Below are positions 4,070 through 14,106 of a stretch of 64,000 bases of DNA, piece by piece. The translations under genes and the position numbers were made by a program. Origin of the DNA: an uncultured Pelagibacteraceae bacterium (GTDB taxonomy: Bacteria; Pseudomonadota; Alphaproteobacteria; Pelagibacterales; Pelagibacteraceae); assembly GCA_902523125.1 (NCBI GenBank), contig CABYYA010000001.1:1-64000 (forward strand), in the 5' to 3' direction. Each line of letters begins with the position of its first letter. The first letter of the stretch is position 1. The notes under the pieces were generated by a model. That model did not search any database and was not told where the DNA came from. It saw only the letters and a program-made list of their open reading frames with translations.

Positions 4070-4130
4070 AACACTCATGAAATTCACAAATGCCCTCTTG
4101 GTGAAATTGGTAGACACAAAGGACTTAAAA
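4070..4130 (+). repeat. Direct repeat copy A: leader plus 5' half of tRNA-Leu(UAA), ending at the anticodon loop (tRNA part 4092-4130)
   Basis: aacactcatgaaattcacaaatgccctcttggtgaaattggtagacacaaaggacttaaaa matches 10292-10352 with one mismatch (T for G at acceptor position 7). Confidence 0.95.
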
Positions 4131-4153
4131 AACATAGGGTAGGGTTATTTCAT

Positions 4154-4180
4154 AGTCTCACACAGTCTCATTCAGTCTCA
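4154..4180 (+). repeat. Three AGTCTCA repeats at 10-bp phase (putative recombinase arm-type sites, cassette 1 left end)
   Basis: agtctca at 4154, 4164 and 4174; first copy starts 24 nt after the core ending at 4130. Confidence 0.8.
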
Positions 4181-4322
4181 AATCCCATAAAATCCTACAC
4201 TTTTATAAAACCCTCATTTATTTTCATTGGAAAATATGAATAATAAATTTTGTCAAACTATAACTAGACTAGAACCTGGTGAGATAAATATATTAAGATA
4301 GATTTATTAATGATTAATTGTT

Positions 4323-6431
4323 GTGAAAAATATTTATAAAATTCATTACATTGTATTTTTTTTAGCATTATTTTTTTCTAAAGCTATAGCGGAGCCAACC
4401 TTTGTGCAAAGTAAATCAATCGAGACAGGCACCCAGGAACTTGGACTTACATTTAATAATGATGGTACAAAAATGTATACTGTAAGAAGTGGAGGAACAA
4501 CGGATGCAGTTATCGAATATATATTAACTAGCGCATATGACATTTCAACGGCAACCGTAAACAATACTAAAGTAGTACATAGAAGTGGAGATGCTGGTAA
4601 TTATTTACCATCACAAGTAGTGTTCAATAATGATGGAACAAAAATGTTTGTTGTCAACCATCACGGTGTAAAGACAGTAGATGAATACTTACTAAGTACT
4701 GCATTTGATGTTTCAACTGCTACATTTGATAGCGAATATAATATCTCTGGTCAAGAAAAGAGAGCAAATTCAGTTGCATTTAATAATGATGGTACCAGAA
4801 TGATTGTTGCTGGTGCAGGAAATATGTCCCAACATCGTATTCATGAATATTCACTAAGCACAGGATTTGATCTTAGCTCCACAGTTACTCATCTTAATAC
4901 TGAAGACCTAAGTTCTACTCACGATTACATAGATGGAGTTACTTTTAATTACGATGGTACTAAAATGTATACCATTAGAGGTGCTGAAGATGACAATAAT
5001 ATTTCTCAGTTTAAATTAACTACACCTTATGATGTCTCTACTTTATCCCTTGAAGGTACCTTCGATGTAAGTTCTGTTAGTGCAGATTCAAGAGAACTTG
5101 TCTTTAGTAATGATGGAAGTAAAATGTTTATCATTGATGATAGTAATAATAAAGTTCATGAATTTAACCTAAGCTGTAATTGGAGCGTAATTGGTGGTGC
5201 TTGTGATGACCCAATAACTACTTCTGATGGGGGTAAAGATATTTTAAGTTCAATCGAGTCTCAAACAGCAACCGCTAAACAAATTGCCATCCACGCCACC
5301 ACTCCGGTATTAAATCGTATGTATTGGTTAAGAAGACACAGAACCAATGATCAATTAAGTAATCAAAATATTAGATTAAACTTTTCTAATTCAATGATGG
5401 CATCGCTTTCTAAAATTATTCCTATATCAAATAAAACAAATGAAGTTCTAGACAAATTATCAGATGATTGGTCATTTTGGAGTGAGGGTAGTGTAAGTAT
5501 TGGTAGAACTGGAGATACATCTAATTCATCATCAAAGAAAATTAATACTAAAGGTATTACACTTGGTATGGATAAAAAGATAAGCAAAAATAGATTATAC
5601 GGTTATGCTTTTAGATTAGGTAAAGATGATGTTGATGTTGGCACATCTGGAACTAATTTAGACACTGAGTCTTTTAGTTTATCTTATTATGGAACTTTTA
5701 TTCATGATGACATAAGGTTTACCGAAAGTATCATTGGAGTGAGCACTTTAAAAACTGATCATGTTAGAAAAGGAGGAGGAAGCACTAGAATAGGAGGAAG
5801 AAGGGGTGCACAAATATTTGGTTCGCTTAACTATTTAACAACATATAAAAAAGAAGATTTTAATATTACTCCTAATTTAAGAATTGATTTAAGCTACACA
5901 GAATTGAATAAATACCAAGAAAATGGTCCTGCGGCTTTAGTTTACAAAGCTCAAACAATTGAAACTGGAATGATATCTACTGGTTTTACTTTAAGCGATG
6001 TTATAAATTTTAATACTTTTACTTTTAAACCAAATGGAGGATTAGAGCTTGGAGTAGATTTTAGTCCATCTTCAGATGCTACTTATCGTTACCTATCGGA
6101 AACTACAGAATATACAAAATCTATCGGTCAAGATTCAAAAAATTTAAGAGCAAATATTGGATTTGATTTAGTAGCTGATAATGGTTTTTCTATAATGACT
6201 ATTTATGAGAGAAATCAAAGTGACAATGCTCATAGCGATACTTTATATTTAGGATTTGGTTATATACCGACAGATAATATTGAATATGCTATGACTTTAG
6301 ATAATGACAAAGCATCTTTGAGTTATAAGAGAAATTTAAATGGTTTCGATATCAGAATGAGTTCGAATTATAGTTTAATGAGTCAAATACCCGAATATGG
6401 TGCAAACCTAGAAATTGTAAGTACATTTTAA
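4323..6431 (+). CDS. Surface protein with N-terminal beta-propeller-like repeats and C-terminal autotransporter-type beta-barrel
   Basis: GTG start, signal peptide (IHYIVFFLALFFSKAIA), five FNNDGTKMY-type repeats, C-terminal barrel ending in aromatic residue (EIVSTF). Paralogue of 11896-14106. Confidence 0.82.
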   Translation: MKNIYKIHYIVFFLALFFSKAIAEPTFVQSKSIETGTQELGLTFNNDGTKMYTVRSGGTTDAVIEYILTSAYDISTATVNNTKVVHRSGDAGNYLPSQVVFNNDGTKMFVVNHHGVKTVDEYLLSTAFDVSTATFDSEYNISGQEKRANSVAFNNDGTRMIVAGAGNMSQHRIHEYSLSTGFDLSSTVTHLNTEDLSSTHDYIDGVTFNYDGTKMYTIRGAEDDNNISQFKLTTPYDVSTLSLEGTFDVSSVSADSRELVFSNDGSKMFIIDDSNNKVHEFNLSCNWSVIGGACDDPITTSDGGKDILSSIESQTATAKQIAIHATTPVLNRMYWLRRHRTNDQLSNQNIRLNFSNSMMASLSKIIPISNKTNEVLDKLSDDWSFWSEGSVSIGRTGDTSNSSSKKINTKGITLGMDKKISKNRLYGYAFRLGKDDVDVGTSGTNLDTESFSLSYYGTFIHDDIRFTESIIGVSTLKTDHVRKGGGSTRIGGRRGAQIFGSLNYLTTYKKEDFNITPNLRIDLSYTELNKYQENGPAALVYKAQTIETGMISTGFTLSDVINFNTFTFKPNGGLELGVDFSPSSDATYRYLSETTEYTKSIGQDSKNLRANIGFDLVADNGFSIMTIYERNQSDNAHSDTLYLGFGYIPTDNIEYAMTLDNDKASLSYKRNLNGFDIRMSSNYSLMSQIPEYGANLEIVSTF

Positions 6432-6435
6432 CAAA

Positions 6436-6457
6436 CTAGGATCTGTCTAGGATCTAG
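6436..6457 (+). repeat. Two CTAGGATCTNN direct repeats at 11-bp phase (cassette 1 right end)
   Basis: ctaggatctgt ctaggatctag, just after the surface-protein stop codon. Confidence 0.7.
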
Positions 6458-6461
6458 ATAG

Positions 6462-6577
6462 GATAAAATAAAAAAAATTTACTTATTCATCTTGTTCAAT
6501 TATAAATATTGGCATAAACACTAATGAAATTCATTAATGCCCTCGTGGTGAAATTGGTAGACACAAAGGACTTAAAA
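6462..6577 (+). repeat. Direct repeat copy B: promoter region plus 5' half of tRNA-Leu(UAA) (tRNA part 6539-6577)
   Basis: Aligns without gaps to 10237-10352; about 9 mismatches in 116 bp by hand count; the 39-nt tRNA 5' half is identical. Confidence 0.93.
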
Positions 6578-6600
6578 GCCGAGGGATAGAAGTTAAAGTC

Positions 6601-6626
6601 AGTCCATAGTAGTCCAAGATAGTCTA
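6601..6626 (+). repeat. Three AGTC(C/T)A repeats at 10-bp phase (putative arm-type sites, cassette 2 left end)
   Basis: agtcca 6601, agtcca 6611, agtcta 6621; first copy starts 24 nt after the core ending at 6577. Confidence 0.8.
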
Positions 6627-6703
6627 AAAACATTTTTAAACTTAATAATCTCATTTCTATTTTTGATTAAGATAATGATTAGCTAATTATTTAGTTGTCA
6701 TAG

Positions 6704-6737
6704 ACTTGGACATGTCTTGGACACAGGGAGATAATAT
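6704..6737 (+). repeat. 34-bp direct repeat, left copy, containing two CTTGGACA at 11-bp phase
   Basis: acttggacatgtcttggacacagggagataatat, 32/34 identical to 10211-10244. Confidence 0.85.
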
Positions 6738-8806
6738 TGTACTCTAATAATATGATAAAAAGTATTCTTTCTTCAATAATTCTAGATAGTAAATATTCTC
6801 TTGATATATTTCCTGTAAAAAAAGTTGATGAACTAGAACAAAAAATAATTTTAAAAAATATTAAGGGTAAAAATAAACCTTTTATTAATTGTATTATAAG
6901 AGAAAAGCTAATCCAATTAAAACCAGAAGAAATTGTAAGACAATTATATGCCCAGGTATTAATTAATGATTACGATTATTCAAAAAAAAGAATTTTTTTT
7001 GAATATCCTGTTAATTTTGGAAGAGAAAAAAAACAAGCAGATATTGTTATAACTGATAAAGACAGGCCTGATACACCATACATAATAGTTGAATTAAAAA
7101 AACCAAAATTAAAAGATGGTAAAGGACAATTAAGATCATATTGTAATGCCACAGGTGCTCCAATAGGTGTTTGGTCAAATGGACAACAAATTTCCCATTA
7201 CAACAGAAAAGATCCAAATTATTTTGAGGAAATATCAGATATTCCTAAAAATAATCAAACCTTAAAAGATATATTAAGTGAAAGGTTTACACTTAAAGAT
7301 TTGATTTTAAGAGACAAAATCTCAAATGAAAAAAAATCGTTAAAAAATATAATCCTTGAAATGGAAGACGAAGTTTTAGCTAATGCTGGTGTGGATGTAT
7401 TTGAAGAGGTTTTTAAACTTATATTCACAAAAATGTATGACGAATTTTTAAGCAGGCAAGATAAAAATAATATTGAATTTTATTTAGATCAAAATTTCAA
7501 AGATAAAGATAAAGGTGATTACGAAAAGTTAAAAAAATCACTAACTGAGCTTGATGACAAAAAATTTCGTGTTATGGAATTTAGAAATACCGGACAAACT
7601 GAAACTGAACTTAGAAATAAAATAGACAACTTATTCTCAGAAGCTAAAAATCAATGGTCAGGAGTTTTTGAAACGGGAACTAAATTTGAATTAACAGATA
7701 GCCATTTATCTGTATGTATTTCAAGTTTACAGGATATTAAATTGTTCAACTCAAACCTTTTGGTTGTTGATGAAGCCTTTGAATATTTAGTTAATAAAAC
7801 ATCTAAAGGTGAAAAAGGTCAGTATTTTACCCCTAGGCATGTGATTGACATGTGTGTTGAAATGCTCAATCCTCAAAAAGGTGAGTATATGATTGATACT
7901 GCTTCGGGTAGCTGTGGATTCCCAGTTCACACTATTTTTAAGTTAACAGGACATTTATTTAAAAATGTTGATATTTCAGAAGACCAAAAAAAAGATATTC
8001 AAAAAGTATTTGGAATAGATTTTGATGAAAAAACTGTTCGTGTTGCTAGAACATTAAATTTAGTTGCAGGTGATGGTGAAACTAATGTTTTACATTTAAA
8101 CACTCTAGATTTTGATAGATGGTCAGATAAAACAGAAAAAAATTCTAATTGGATTAATACTTATGGAAAAGGATTTGAAAGATTAAAAAAATTAAGAAGA
8201 GATAAAGATAGTGATAAATACTTTAATTTTGATTTGTTAATGGCGAACCCACCTTTTGCTGGTGATATAAAAGAAAGTAGAATTTTACATCAATATGAGT
8301 TCGGATTTAAGAAGGATGGTAAAAAAACACAAAACAAAGTAGGTAGAGATATTTTATTTATTGAGAGAAATTTAGATTTTCTTAAACCTGGTGGCCGTAT
8401 GGCAATAGTATTACCTCAGGGTAGATTTAATAACAAAGATGATAAGTTTATTAGAGATACTATCTCCAGTAAATGTAGAATACTAGCGGTTGTAGGTTTA
8501 CATATTAATACTTTCAAGCCTCATACAGGCACTAAAACAAGTGTTCTGTTTGTTCAAAAATGGGATGAAAAACTTTGCCCTAAAGTTGATGATTATTCTA
8601 TTTTTTTTGCAGTATCTGATGAAGGAGGAAAAGATAATTCAGGAAATTATGTTTATCTAAAAGATAAAAATGGAAATTTATTATTAGATGCAAATGGTCA
8701 TTTGGTCGTTAAGCACGATTTACATAACCATGATGGAGTATTGCAAGATGGTATAGCAGAAAAATTTAAAATTTGGGGCATAAAACAAAAACTATCTTTT
8801 TTGTAA
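6737..8806 (+). CDS. Restriction-modification fusion: N-terminal HsdR_N-like nuclease domain plus N6-adenine DNA methyltransferase (HsdM-like)
   Basis: PD-(D/E)xK-like segment (KKQADIVITDKDRPDTPYIIVELKKPK), SAM-binding region (GQYFTPRHVIDMCVEMLNP...DTASGSCGFP) and catalytic NPPF. Start may be TTG 6737 or ATG 6752. Confidence 0.9.
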   Translation: MYSNNMIKSILSSIILDSKYSLDIFPVKKVDELEQKIILKNIKGKNKPFINCIIREKLIQLKPEEIVRQLYAQVLINDYDYSKKRIFFEYPVNFGREKKQADIVITDKDRPDTPYIIVELKKPKLKDGKGQLRSYCNATGAPIGVWSNGQQISHYNRKDPNYFEEISDIPKNNQTLKDILSERFTLKDLILRDKISNEKKSLKNIILEMEDEVLANAGVDVFEEVFKLIFTKMYDEFLSRQDKNNIEFYLDQNFKDKDKGDYEKLKKSLTELDDKKFRVMEFRNTGQTETELRNKIDNLFSEAKNQWSGVFETGTKFELTDSHLSVCISSLQDIKLFNSNLLVVDEAFEYLVNKTSKGEKGQYFTPRHVIDMCVEMLNPQKGEYMIDTASGSCGFPVHTIFKLTGHLFKNVDISEDQKKDIQKVFGIDFDEKTVRVARTLNLVAGDGETNVLHLNTLDFDRWSDKTEKNSNWINTYGKGFERLKKLRRDKDSDKYFNFDLLMANPPFAGDIKESRILHQYEFGFKKDGKKTQNKVGRDILFIERNLDFLKPGGRMAIVLPQGRFNNKDDKFIRDTISSKCRILAVVGLHINTFKPHTGTKTSVLFVQKWDEKLCPKVDDYSIFFAVSDEGGKDNSGNYVYLKDKNGNLLLDANGHLVVKHDLHNHDGVLQDGIAEKFKIWGIKQKLSFL

Positions 8807-8816
8807 AAATAAAAAA

Positions 8817-10196
8817 ATGGAAATTTTTCAGATAAACAAAAACAAACTTCAAAATAGATTATTTAGACTTGATTCAGATTTTTACAAAAAAAAATATATT
8901 GAACTAGAAAAAATTGTTAAAAAAAATGATCATATTATATTAAATGAAATAAGTTTTGTTACAGACGGAGAACATGGGACTGTAAAAGTTCTTGAAAAAG
9001 GACATGCAAAATATTTTGGTGCAAGAAATATTTTTACTGGATTTTTAGAAAATATAAATGTTGGTTTCATCTCTTATGAAGATCATAAAAAAAACAAAAA
9101 AACTATTTTAAAACATAGAGATATATTATTAAGCTGCGTAGGCCATGTTGGAAATGTATCATTTGTCCCCAAAAATATTGGTGAAGCTAATATTGTAAGA
9201 AATGTTATTTTGGTTAGACCAGATGAAACAAAAATAAATACGTCTTATTTGTTTGGATATTTCTTATCTAAATATGGAAAAAATCTTTTTGCCAGGACTG
9301 CCTCTGGTAATAATCAACCTTTAGTGAGTCTGGAAAATGCTAAAGAAATTTTAGTACCTATTTTTAGTAAAAAATTAGAAAAAATATGTGAAGAAATTCT
9401 GAGTAAAAGTGAAAATTTATTGATTAAATCTCAGGGAATGTACAATAAAGCAGAAAATTATCTTCTTTCAGAAACCAAGCTTAATACTTGGATAGAAAAA
9501 AATGAATTATCTTATGAAAAAAATTTTAATCAAATTTCACAATATTCAAGAATTGACTCTGAATATTTTCAACCAAAATATGATGCGCTTATAAAAAAAA
9601 TCAAAGAATACAAAGGTGGCTGGAACACAGTGAAAAATTTGTTAAATATCAAATCAAAAAATTTTAACCCAGAACACAATAAAAAATATAAATATATTGA
9701 ACTTGCAAACATTAATATTAATGGAGAAATAATAGATTGTAGTATTGATTATGGTCATGAGCTTCCATCTAGAGCAAGAAGAACTGTGAAAAATCGTGAT
9801 GTAATAATATCTTCAATTGAGGGGTCTCTAGATAGTATTGCTTTAGTTGATGAAGTCTTTAATAATTCATTATGTTCTACTGGTTTTTTTGTTTGTAATT
9901 CTAATTTCTTTAATTCAGAGACACTATTGATTTTAATGAAAAGTTTCATCGGTCAAAAACAATTAAAAAAAGGTTCAAGTGGAACCATTCTAACAGCAAT
10001 TAACATTGATGAATTAAATAAAATTGTACTTCCTAAAGTTGATAAAAAAATTCAAAGTAAAGTTAAGGGGTTTATAAATGAAGCTTACAGGTTAAGAACT
10101 GAGTCGAATAGACTATTAGCTGATCTTAAAAATATAATTGAATGTGCTATAGAAAGGGACGAGCTATCAGCTTTAAAAAAAAAGAATACTTTATAG
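8817..10196 (+). CDS. Type I-like specificity subunit (HsdS), two target-recognition domains
   Basis: Follows the methylase after 10 nt; two similar half-domains (RLDSDFYKKKYIELEK... and RIDSEYFQPKYDALIKK...) with NNQPLVSLENAKEILVP and GTILTAINIDELNKIVLP. Confidence 0.88.
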   Translation: MEIFQINKNKLQNRLFRLDSDFYKKKYIELEKIVKKNDHIILNEISFVTDGEHGTVKVLEKGHAKYFGARNIFTGFLENINVGFISYEDHKKNKKTILKHRDILLSCVGHVGNVSFVPKNIGEANIVRNVILVRPDETKINTSYLFGYFLSKYGKNLFARTASGNNQPLVSLENAKEILVPIFSKKLEKICEEILSKSENLLIKSQGMYNKAENYLLSETKLNTWIEKNELSYEKNFNQISQYSRIDSEYFQPKYDALIKKIKEYKGGWNTVKNLLNIKSKNFNPEHNKKYKYIELANININGEIIDCSIDYGHELPSRARRTVKNRDVIISSIEGSLDSIALVDEVFNNSLCSTGFFVCNSNFFNSETLLILMKSFIGQKQLKKGSSGTILTAINIDELNKIVLPKVDKKIQSKVKGFINEAYRLRTESNRLLADLKNIIECAIERDELSALKKKNTL

Positions 10197-10210
10197 GACT
10201 TTATAGGATA

Positions 10211-10244
10211 ACTTGGACATGACTTGGACACAGGGAGATAAAAT
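10211..10244 (+). repeat. 34-bp direct repeat, right copy, containing two CTTGGACA at 11-bp phase
   Basis: acttggacatgacttggacacagggagataaaat; partner of 6704-6737. Confidence 0.85.
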
Positions 10245-10266
10245 AAAAAAATTTTACTTATTAGGG

Positions 10267-10293
10267 TTGTTCAATTATAAATATTAGCATAAA
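10267..10293 (+). promoter_or_regulatory. Putative tRNA-Leu promoter within the cassette-borne right end
   Basis: TTGTTC - 15 nt - CATAAA about 20 nt upstream of the tRNA 5' end; same arrangement in copy B (6492-6518). Confidence 0.4.
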
Positions 10294-10313
10294 CACTCAT
10301 GAAATTCACAAAT

Positions 10314-10399
10314 GCCCTCGTGGTGAAATTGGTAGACACAAAGGACTTAAAATCCTTGCCGCTTGCGGAGTGCCAGTTCGAGTCTGGCCGAGGGCACCA
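10314..10399 (+). tRNA. tRNA-Leu(UAA), CCA encoded
   Basis: GCCCTCG/CGAGGGC acceptor stem, anticodon loop CTTAAAA (10346-10352), long variable arm, GTTCGAGTC T-arm, CCA at 10397-10399. Confidence 0.97.
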
Positions 10400-11895: not shown

Positions 11896-14106
11896 ATGAA
11901 CAAGGTTTTATTATTTGTTTTAGTTTTTTTCACTTTATTGAGCTCCAATTCATCTGCTCAATTTACTTTTGTACAAACAAAAAATGTAGCATTAGATACT
12001 CCTGGTATTAGAGGAATAAACTTTAAGCCAGATGGTACCAGAATGTATATAACCAATCGTTATGATGATCAAAAAGCATATATTATTGAATATTCGCTTA
12101 GTAAACCATTTGACATAAGCACAGCAACAATTTCTTTTACAGGAGGTAAGCCAAAAGGAACTGCATTAACTTGTAATGGAGCTGGAGATGATAATCAAAT
12201 GGAATTACCCCACGCAATTGAATTTAAGCCAGATGGTACACGAATGTTTGTAACCACAAATAAGGATTTCGGTGAAGGAGAGATCGGTGTTGCAGTGTTT
12301 CAATTTAAATTAACGACCCCTTGGGACTCAACCACATTAGTTTGTGAAAAAATATACGAAGTAGACGTCGATGGCACAGGTGCTGAAGATCAAGTAAGAA
12401 CTTTAGATTTTAAACCAGACGGTACAAGAATGTATGTAGGGGGAAAGAAAAAACATAAAATAAGACAATATGATTTAGCAACTCCTTTTGATCTTAGATC
12501 TGGAGTTACCCCAGGAGGAATTTCAGACTCATTAGAGAGTTTTGAGGATAATATGAGAGACATTCAATTTAATCCAGATGGAACTCAAATGTTCTTAACT
12601 GGTAATGAGAGAAATAGTGGACTAATGCAAAAATTCAGTCTAAGCACACCATACGATATAACCACTTTATCCTCTACGACTGAAACATTTTCTTTAACAT
12701 CACCGTCAGACTCAAATCTTGTAAATAATTTGATGGGTTTTATTTTTGCTGTAAATTTTACAAAAATTTTTGTAACTAGTGACGATGGAAATAATGATGA
12801 TGCAGGTAATGACAATCAAATCCATGAATTTGATATTGATTGTGCAGGCACAATAACCTGCGGTGATCCTTCTGCTAATGCTGATGTGAAAGCTATCATC
12901 GAGGCAAATGTTGAGTCTGCTAAACGTATAATTAGAAATAATACTCTTCCGATATTTCATAGGACTGAATGGTTAAGAAGACATAAAAATAAAGATAATC
13001 TAAATAACCTTAATGCAGAGATAGATTTTACAAATGAAAAAATTGCAAGATTAGTAAGTGCTTTAGAAACTCTTAAAAAAGATAAAGATAGAACCTATAG
13101 AAGTGAAGATTGGTTTCAATGGAGTGAGGGAAGAGTAAGCTTAGGTAGAAAAAGTGCAAAAAGCGGGTCATCTAGAGACATTCATGGTTATGGCATTTCT
13201 GTTGGTGCAGATAGAATCAAAGAAGAGGATCGAGATGAAATGTATGGCTATGTTTTTCAATATGGAAATGATGATGTTGATATTGGAAACAAAGGCACAA
13301 ACCTAAGTACAGATACTTACAGCATCGCTATTTATAGTACGAAATTTAAAGATAATGAGTCTTTTACTGATAGTATTATTGGATTTAGTTTACTAGATAT
13401 CAATCATAGAAGAGTAATTAATAACAATACCTTAAAAGGGGATAGAGCTGGACAACAGATATTTGGATCAATCAATTTTGGAAAAAGATTACATGATGAA
13501 AAACTTAATTTAAGCCCAGGGATTAAATTAGATTTAGGTTATACAAAATTAAGAGAATTTAAAGAAAAAACTACACTTGGTGATAGTTTGGCTGACGCAT
13601 TAATTTATAAAGATCAAAATATCAAAACAGCTTTAGCTACAATTGGTTTTCTTTTTGATACAGAAAATGAACAAGAAGAAAGAACAACCAATCATCACGG
13701 AAGAATTGAATATGTTGGAGATTTTAGTCCATCATCAAACGCAGAGTTTATTTATAGGAATGACCAAGGGACTGGTTATAATTATAGTACAAATAATAAG
13801 TCCAAACATAATTACAGAATAGGTTATGGTTTCGATATAACTTCAATAACAGGTTGGTCTGTTGTAACTAGTTTCGAAAGATTTGGTGCTAGCGGGAAAG
13901 GTTTTTATAATGAGCTTTATTTGTTGGTAGGATATGTCCCAATTGATGATATGAAATTTTCATTTGAGTTTGATAATTCAAACACAACAAGTTTAGGATT
14001 TGTTAACAAAATAAATAACTATAATTTTAAAATTAACTCGAATTTTGATCTTTTAAGTGATGAAAGAAATCATAATACGAAAATATCAGTTAGTAATAAA
14101 TTTTAA
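11896..14106 (+). CDS. Surface protein with N-terminal beta-propeller-like repeats and C-terminal autotransporter-type beta-barrel (paralogue of 4323-6431)
   Basis: Signal peptide, FKPDGTRMY repeats, barrel segments (WFQWSEGRVSLGRK, YGNDDVDIGNKGTNL, QIFGSINFGK) matching the cassette-1 protein. Confidence 0.85.
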   Translation: MNKVLLFVLVFFTLLSSNSSAQFTFVQTKNVALDTPGIRGINFKPDGTRMYITNRYDDQKAYIIEYSLSKPFDISTATISFTGGKPKGTALTCNGAGDDNQMELPHAIEFKPDGTRMFVTTNKDFGEGEIGVAVFQFKLTTPWDSTTLVCEKIYEVDVDGTGAEDQVRTLDFKPDGTRMYVGGKKKHKIRQYDLATPFDLRSGVTPGGISDSLESFEDNMRDIQFNPDGTQMFLTGNERNSGLMQKFSLSTPYDITTLSSTTETFSLTSPSDSNLVNNLMGFIFAVNFTKIFVTSDDGNNDDAGNDNQIHEFDIDCAGTITCGDPSANADVKAIIEANVESAKRIIRNNTLPIFHRTEWLRRHKNKDNLNNLNAEIDFTNEKIARLVSALETLKKDKDRTYRSEDWFQWSEGRVSLGRKSAKSGSSRDIHGYGISVGADRIKEEDRDEMYGYVFQYGNDDVDIGNKGTNLSTDTYSIAIYSTKFKDNESFTDSIIGFSLLDINHRRVINNNTLKGDRAGQQIFGSINFGKRLHDEKLNLSPGIKLDLGYTKLREFKEKTTLGDSLADALIYKDQNIKTALATIGFLFDTENEQEERTTNHHGRIEYVGDFSPSSNAEFIYRNDQGTGYNYSTNNKSKHNYRIGYGFDITSITGWSVVTSFERFGASGKGFYNELYLLVGYVPIDDMKFSFEFDNSNTTSLGFVNKINNYNFKINSNFDLLSDERNHNTKISVSNKF

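Follow-up and report, generated by a model that had tools for sequence, protein, structure and literature searches.

How does one tRNA gene come to be preceded by two partial copies of itself, with unrelated genes between them? The question is raised by tRNA-Leu(UAA) in a 64,000-nt stretch of DNA (hereafter the window) from an uncultured Pelagibacteraceae bacterium (assembly GCA_902523125.1, contig CABYYA010000001.1, positions 1 to 64,000 of the forward strand), where copies of the 5' half of the gene delimit two intervals. We consider it probable that such intervals are non-autonomous cassettes mobilised in trans by integrases encoded in satellite elements, and that a tandem repeat pair near each cassette end, here called the address, is the arm site of these integrases. 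Site-specific insertion and horizontal movement of whole cassettes are well supported by the sequence comparisons below; the action of the integrase in trans on the cassettes, the binding of the address and the route between cells are what we infer from them.

Insertion at the anticodon loop of tRNA-Leu(UAA)

The locus is composed as follows:

4092–4130, + strand: partial 5' half of tRNA-Leu(UAA), copy 1, the most upstream, with one mismatch; junction after CTTAAAA at 4124–4130
4131–6577, + strand: element 1, a cassette of 2447 bp, from the first CTTAAAA end to the second
6539–6577, + strand: partial 5' half of tRNA-Leu, copy 2; junction after CTTAAAA at 6571–6577
6578–10352, + strand: element 2, a cassette of 3775 bp
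10314–10399, + strand: intact tRNA-Leu(UAA), found by ARAGORN; its 5' half (10314–10352) comes from element 2 and its 3' half (10353–10399) is the host attB

An earlier reading made from the letters alone (the sequence-only reading) had described three 5' halves in direct orientation, each ending at CTTAAAA, and their positions were confirmed base for base. CTTAAAA is the 7-nt anticodon loop, with the stem AAGGA/TCCTT on either side, and the copies diverge immediately after it: copies 1, 2 and 3 run into AACATAGGG, GCCGAGGG and TCCTTGCC, respectively. Copies 2 and 3 are 92% identical over 119 nt, including ∼77 nt of promoter-like DNA upstream; copy 1 has upstream similarity above chance for only ∼22 nt, and an older right end upstream of 4092 was rejected because beyond these last ∼22 nt the similarity is no better than that of shuffled sequences (29/500). 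The boundaries of element 1 agree with those of ∼85 cassettes from other genomes. The two intervals hold unrelated cargo (a beta-propeller protein and a restriction-modification pair), as that reading had said, and neither gave an integrase or transposase match in Pfam.

We queried 300 Pelagibacter genomes with the 31-nt core of the tRNA-Leu 5' half, which is present in 215 of them, at 0 to 5 copies per genome. Two to five copies of the 5' half are found in 88 genomes, the window's genome included (among the other 299, two copies occur in 71, three in 15 and five in one), and the reversed core had no match in the listed genomes. Near-complete and single-contig genomes give the same picture: with completeness of 94% or more, about half carry more than one copy, whereas genomes from a different family of the order carry only one. 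Copy counts are minima, as many genomes are incomplete. Three of the array carriers are single-cell genomes (we take genome names of the AG-... type to denote single-cell isolates), so assembly chimeras do not account for the arrays.

Loci for comparison were selected by presence of the tRNA half, with priority given to multi-copy ones. The locus without an insert is seen on the one contig of G303, where it reads purL-purQ-purC-purB-map-sfsA-cinA-GGCT-tRNA-Leu-nadK (gene names assigned from reading the translations). One and the same upstream flank is found in three states: followed by an intact tRNA (empty, G086), by one cassette (G118) and by two cassettes (G343); these are, at an orthologous site, the empty, single and stacked states, breaking exactly at CTTAAAA, that the sequence-only reading had predicted. 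When the flanks of occupied loci are joined, the empty locus results, without an extra or a missing base (187–188 of 200 positions on the left, 152 of 160 on the right). Exact insertion at a core sequence with direct repeats, and the existence of an empty site, are features of a tyrosine-integrase element at a tRNA gene, and all of them are seen here. Mismatches are found in 11 of 41 upstream-most halves, in none of 10 middle halves and in none of 57 intact ones; decay confined to the upstream-most halves is what entry of new cassettes at the intact gene would lead one to expect. Comparison of interval contents further bore out the expectation that the cargo at this tRNA differs from genome to genome, the window's set not being universal.

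Cassettes also appear to have moved between genomes as whole units. Full-length cassettes share 97.1% (L037/L058), 96.8% (L039/L139) and, in a 2654-bp family, 98.3% and 99.4% identity between genomes whose adjacent nadK genes are 75–80% identical.

Cassette ends, cargo and the matched address

Cassette anatomy was worked out on the first 54 intervals (0.27–7.8 kb) and a later set of 33. Three AGTC-type repeats are found in the first 75 bp from the left junction in 61 of 89 cassettes, against one occurrence in 484 kb of interior. The address, a tandem pair of 11-bp repeats, lies ∼127 bp from the left end and again 141 bp from the right end, the right pair keeping its 11-bp period in 71 out of 71. 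The order at the right end is address pair (at −141), GAGATAA, promoter-like block (75 of 89 cassettes) and tRNA half; TATAGGA-N3-TATAGGA is found near this end in 50 of 89 cassettes. Cargo open reading frames are in tRNA orientation in 117 of 124 cases, and where the last cassette is intact its promoter presumably drives the working tRNA. In the window these parts are the following:

4154–4182, + strand: element 1 left arm, type B, three AGTCTC repeats at 10-bp spacing
4258–4287, + strand: element 1 left address, degenerate (CTATAAC..CTAGAACC, followed by GAGATAA)
4323–6431, + strand: element 1 cargo, a 702-aa beta-propeller and autotransporter barrel protein with a GTG start (Pfam PF03797, 1.6e-26)
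6436–6454, + strand: element 1 right address, two copies of CTAGGATC at an 11-bp period
6462–6538, + strand: element 1 right end, promoter-like and borne by the element, preceding tRNA half 2 (119-nt repeat with 92% identity to 10237–10355)
6598–6627, + strand: element 2 left arm, type A, GTCAGTCCATAGTAGTCCAAGATAGTCTAA
6705–6734, + strand: element 2 left address, two copies of CTTGGACA at an 11-bp period, with GAGATAA
6737–8806, + strand: element 2 cargo, a 689-aa fusion of nuclease (HSDR_N_2) and N6 methyltransferase, type IIB/IIG-like; best solved relative RM.BsaXI
8817–10196, + strand: element 2 cargo, a 459-aa DNA-specificity (S) subunit (PADLOC Specificity_I, 6.7e-28)
10192–10208, + strand: element 2 right inverted-repeat block, TATAGGACTTTATAGGA, present in 50 of 89 cassettes
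10212–10230, + strand: element 2 right address, two copies of CTTGGACA at an 11-bp period, the same as its left address

Judged by these matches, element 2 is a two-gene restriction-modification system of the BsaXI/type IIB-like kind. Its type A left arm occurs in 13 of 121 genomes (none for the reversed pattern), and the sites that were checked come after tRNA-Leu halves. Element 1 looks worn, as its left and right addresses do not match; its right address is that of an autonomous circle (L109, see below). At 11896–14106 of the window, immediately following nadK, a 736-aa propeller/autotransporter protein is encoded that is related to the element 1 cargo over its full length (34% identity); this cargo is thus a variant of a resident family of surface proteins.

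The address core is the same at both ends of one cassette and variable between cassettes. Left and right addresses match exactly in 31 of 39 cassettes, compared with 3.6% between cassettes, and in loci fetched afterwards 17 of 20 matched, compared with 7.4% between cassettes; no permutation in 10,000 was as good (p<1e-4). An automatic finder tallied 26 core forms, some of which are register variants. One 2654-bp cassette, found in four genomes, has CTAGAAAC at both ends in two copies and CTAGTAGC-type cores in the other two, and base-by-base comparison of one pair placed 43 of its 48 differences at or outside the addresses, leaving five in the ∼2.4 kb between them; the exchanged end part would be one contiguous attP segment if the cassette were circular. 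These matched repeats are new in this work, and we regard the address as a putative, and likely, integrase arm site. A T7-type phage promoter was considered because GGGAGATAA recalls the start of the T7 promoter, and was rejected on account of the tandem 11-bp form. A scan of IMG/VR for GTAC-type addresses with the tail gave no match.

Across genomes the cargo includes restriction systems, GmrSD, trypsin- and caspase-type proteins, transporters, an aldolase, dehydrogenases, and MORN and pilin-like proteins. Two cassettes (L044_c2 and L072_c1) have up to eleven small proteins in a row, several of them with pilin-like N-terminal methylation motifs, and a cargo protein of L153 (8176–9390) matches neurotransmitter-gated ion channel domains. 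L054_c1 and L065_c1 are 95% alike in their first ∼1 kb and completely different in the remainder, so the cargo itself seems to be modular.

Integrases were sought by similarity to known integrases and in Pfam lists limited to 25 families. Relatives of integrases were found in four of 90 intervals, or two of 88 once the intervals picked for their integrase are excluded; the other 86 gave no relative of a known integrase. There is no tyrosine recombinase among the Pfam matches listed for the cargo, and none was found hidden among the proteins tested from two large intervals, L135_c1 (15.2 kb) and L153_c1 (11.8 kb).

Two further end classes use the same tRNA site or belong to these arrays. Small intervals of 1.0–1.5 kb at this tRNA (L052, L063, L141, L147 and L151) have the left end AGTATTCAAA..., the tandem address CTAGTGTAGTT and the right end AAAAAAGTAAGTAAA..., and are probably served by another integrase. 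A third class, with the right end GATATAACAATG, is found from L044 17228 to L045 7929 (both in G202) and in L067, L078, L136, L150 and L155.

Autonomous relatives and the proposed helper

Three closed circular contigs in IMG/VR, L094 (7.70 kb), L109 (7.85 kb) and L112 (8.91 kb), with terminal repeats of 99–123 bp, carry the tRNA half as attP; closed contigs of this kind attest circles, not virions. Integrated autonomous relatives are found in arrays of G168, G120 (AG-414-K15) and AG-909-L14, and in the last of these (L128) a non-autonomous cassette stands directly upstream of the autonomous element. A more divergent class is represented in G202 by a 10.2-kb element of the third end class, downstream of three cassettes, whose integrase is 33% identical to that of L094. 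Only six of the 300 genomes have such an integrase.

The autonomous elements that we examined encode a ∼545-aa tyrosine integrase with weak similarity to PF00589 and different from the integron integrase IntI, an AEP/DUF5906 primase-helicase and a RusA-like protein. No conjugation genes were seen in them, and no capsid genes in L094, L068_c1 or L122, whose integrase and primase/helicase without capsid genes give them the gene content of phage satellites. Their left arms can be nearly identical to those of non-autonomous cassettes (L061_c1 and autonomous L068_c1; L060_c1 and L122). The right-end promoter block of most cassettes and the inverted repeat of many are both absent from the autonomous elements, hence the cassettes are probably not plain deletion derivatives of them. 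The sequence-only reading had named, as a point that would tell against it, an integrase inside related elements that had simply been deleted here. This applies only in part: autonomous relatives do exist, but most of the cassettes have a right-end block that those lack.

Residues ∼25–120 of the integrase vary with the address, and the remainder of the protein does not. Identity in this N-terminal domain versus the rest is 59% versus 93% for L128/L129 and 77% versus 94% for L094/L109, compared with 96% versus 94% for L094/L126, which share an address; in L112/L130 the pattern is reversed (77% versus 59%), which would fit an exchange of the domain. The covariation of address and N-terminal domain gives a partial Mantel p=0.003 (n=7, rounded identities). 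A structure model has beta-beta-beta-alpha at residues 73–125, with a predicted local distance difference test score (pLDDT) of only 60–72, and a search of solved structures with the integrase profile gave no match. Three strands and a helix are the topology of known arm-binding domains. The N-terminal domain of the Tn916 integrase, a three-stranded beta-sheet, binds paired 11-bp DR2 sites. Structures are available for the Tn1549 integrase (PMC5871717). As in Tn916/Tn1549, paired ∼11-bp direct repeats are present in both arms here, with binding predicted from this geometry; unlike theirs, the Pelagibacter repeats vary between elements and are matched within one, and conjugative transposons target many sites. 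Addresses common to autonomous and non-autonomous elements are CCAGCACA, CCAGTACC, CTAGAAAC and CTAGGATC.

We propose that each interval is an integrative cassette consisting of a left arm (three AGTC-type repeats 20–50 bp inside the junction, often an inverted repeat, and at +127 the address pair), a cargo operon, a right arm (inverted repeat and matching address pair at −141), a promoter and a tRNA-Leu(UAA) 5' half. A lambda-type tyrosine integrase, encoded by an autonomous satellite-like element that resides at this tRNA and acting in trans, would carry out recombination between the cassette attP and CTTAAAA in the anticodon loop of the intact gene. The previous 5' half would stay upstream as a scar, and the promoter and 5' half of the cassette would rebuild a working tRNA, thereby regenerating the site and allowing further cassettes to stack. 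The N-terminal beta-sheet domain of the integrase most likely reads the address pair, in which case the address would define which integrase moves which cassette. The most likely helper is a sibling satellite that shares the arm and address repeats of the cassettes, not a phage.

Alternatives and known systems

Several observations weigh against this proposal. The covariation is based on seven integrases only, and the structure model is weak overall (mean pLDDT 52, too weak for a fold search). An L094-type integrase was not found in the window's own genome, which is only 66% complete, and for most addresses, CTTGGACA of element 2 among them, no autonomous element with the same address has turned up so far. 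Scans of IMG/VR returned no circular form of a non-autonomous cassette, and left-arm scans found no cassettes in virus-like contigs. Homologous recombination between arrays could, moreover, move some cassettes. That it is the main route of spread, through shared ends and with the integrase of historical interest only, we consider unlikely. Ends are indeed common to different cassettes, L054_c1 and L065_c1 are alike in the first part of their cargo only, and in L071_c1 and L076_c1 cargo that is 99.8% identical is joined to different ends, switching exactly at both addresses; but such recombination would not give exact-junction insertion into an empty site, cargo and target being without homology, nor circular autonomous elements with a rebuilt attP, and it leaves the match between the two addresses of a cassette unexplained. 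The intervals might also be dead remnants of serially integrated phages or satellites, their integrases deleted and their movement over, as could be read from the integrase-bearing relatives at the same site, from the wear of upstream scars (mismatches in 11 of 41 most-upstream halves against none of 10 middle ones) and from the degraded left address of element 1. This seems very unlikely to us: the known integrase relatives are missing from about 86 of 88 intervals, yet in most the two arms and matched addresses are retained; the majority have a right-end block that the autonomous elements do not; and cassettes 97–99% identical lie within flanks that are 75–80% identical.

Two further explanations accept mobilisation in trans and differ in what acts on the cassettes. 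The sequence-only reading had placed the helper elsewhere, perhaps in a phage, and pelagiphages with an attP carrying this tRNA half do exist: in HTVC105P and AP013542 the tRNA-Leu 5' half adjoins an integrase gene, and other attP versions of the half are present on several IMG/VR contigs. Its in-trans part is supported, like the picture of minimal elements stacking at one attB, by the site states, the exact junctions and the integrase-less majority; its phage part is most likely wrong, since the HTVC105P attP has no cassette arm sequences. Neither the AGTC triple nor the address pair is found in the phage attP flanks examined (HTVC105P, AP013542 and IMG/VR contigs), and no L094-type integrase occurs among 50,697 phage records; HTVC105P, with the right tRNA half and the wrong arms, was rejected as mobiliser, and a temperate pelagiphage of its type providing the integrase is most improbable. 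The tRNA-Leu half occurs with differing flanks in several attP-like contexts (IMG/VR contigs L095, L098–L101, L103, L106, L110, L111 and L115), and several phage or element lineages thus seem to target the same anticodon loop. It is possible, though doubtful, that the address binds not the integrase but a regulator of the helper phage or satellite, an excisionase or a replication initiator. With GAGATAA behind them, the tandem 11-bp repeats have the look of a promoter or operator, and the autonomous elements encode a small protein (107 aa in L122, 97 aa in L094) that resembles AlpA/Xis-type regulators by eye only, with no Pfam or PHROG match to confirm the family; against this, the address tracks the N-terminal domain of the integrase and not the remaining protein, and the number, period and position of the sites recall the paired DR2 sites of Tn916.

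Integrative elements that lack an integrase are known from other systems. Cis-mobilizable elements (CIMEs) are att-flanked, integrase-less elements, decayed from integrative and conjugative elements (ICEs). The Pelagibacter cassettes resemble CIMEs in being att-flanked and without integrase, in piling up at one site and, as proposed here, in being open to movement by a related integrase, and in AG-909-L14 a related integrative element adjoins at the same site; they differ in being a numerous class with its own end structure and a matched address. Tandem accretion of ICEs and of integrative and mobilizable elements has been described (PMC5357655, PMC5704250), as have arrays of integron cassettes without an integrase, including clusters of attC sites lacking integron-integrases (CALINs) (review, PMC11389934). 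Integrons and CALINs share with the present arrays cargo modules in one orientation, growth at one end and, on the present proposal, mobilisation in trans by a site-specific tyrosine recombinase. The Pelagibacter cassettes, by contrast, have no attI, no attC hairpin sites at their junctions, which consist of tRNA-Leu 5' halves and two-armed attP-like ends, and they enter and rebuild a tRNA anticodon loop and hold whole operons with a promoter. The tycheposons of Prochlorococcus, 4–200-kb elements with their own recombinase (PMC10872708), are likewise marine, tRNA-anchored, cargo-carrying and dependent on a tyrosine recombinase, whereas most Pelagibacter cassettes are 1–6 kb long and 86 of 88 intervals have no recognised recombinase of their own. 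The autonomous relatives, 7.7–8.9 kb in length, resemble in their gene content phage satellites such as P4, phage-inducible chromosomal islands (PICI), phage-inducible chromosomal minimalist islands (PICMI; PMC10803314) and virion-encapsidated integrative mobile elements (VEIME), whereas the cassettes have neither integrase nor replication genes. Additive flexible genomic islands, in which 20-bp repeats of tRNA-Lys were described in Methylopumilus (PMC10872708), are also similar, as repeated partial tRNA copies mark successive unrelated insertions with variable cargo; in those islands the repeat corresponds to the final 20 nt of the tRNA gene, and neither element ends nor a helper or an address were described. 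We found no description of the present system in the openly accessible literature searched, the nearest being additive islands, tycheposons, CALINs and phage satellites.

Pelagibacter (SAR11) is among the most abundant bacteria of the ocean, with streamlined genomes that are held to be poor in mobile elements and a gene content that varies widely between cells. We see about an even chance that Pelagibacter has a cassette system of its own, in which address-coded, swappable ends are shared among satellites with interchangeable integrase N-terminal domains, compatibility groups choose the helper, and all cargo converges on a single tRNA gene, its working 5' half and promoter being supplied by the last cassette; such a system would be a modular counterpart of the integron built from lambda-type recombination. 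The pairing of address and integrase would amount to a code of integrase specificity that can be put to the test. Cargo elements of tyrosine integrases that are not themselves autonomous are here the common form, by about 40 to 1, not the exception. Through the cassettes, defence genes (restriction systems, caspase- and protease-type genes), transport genes and metabolic genes may thus enter and leave SAR11 genomes as units of 1–6 kb at a known base, by a route that is defined and can be counted.

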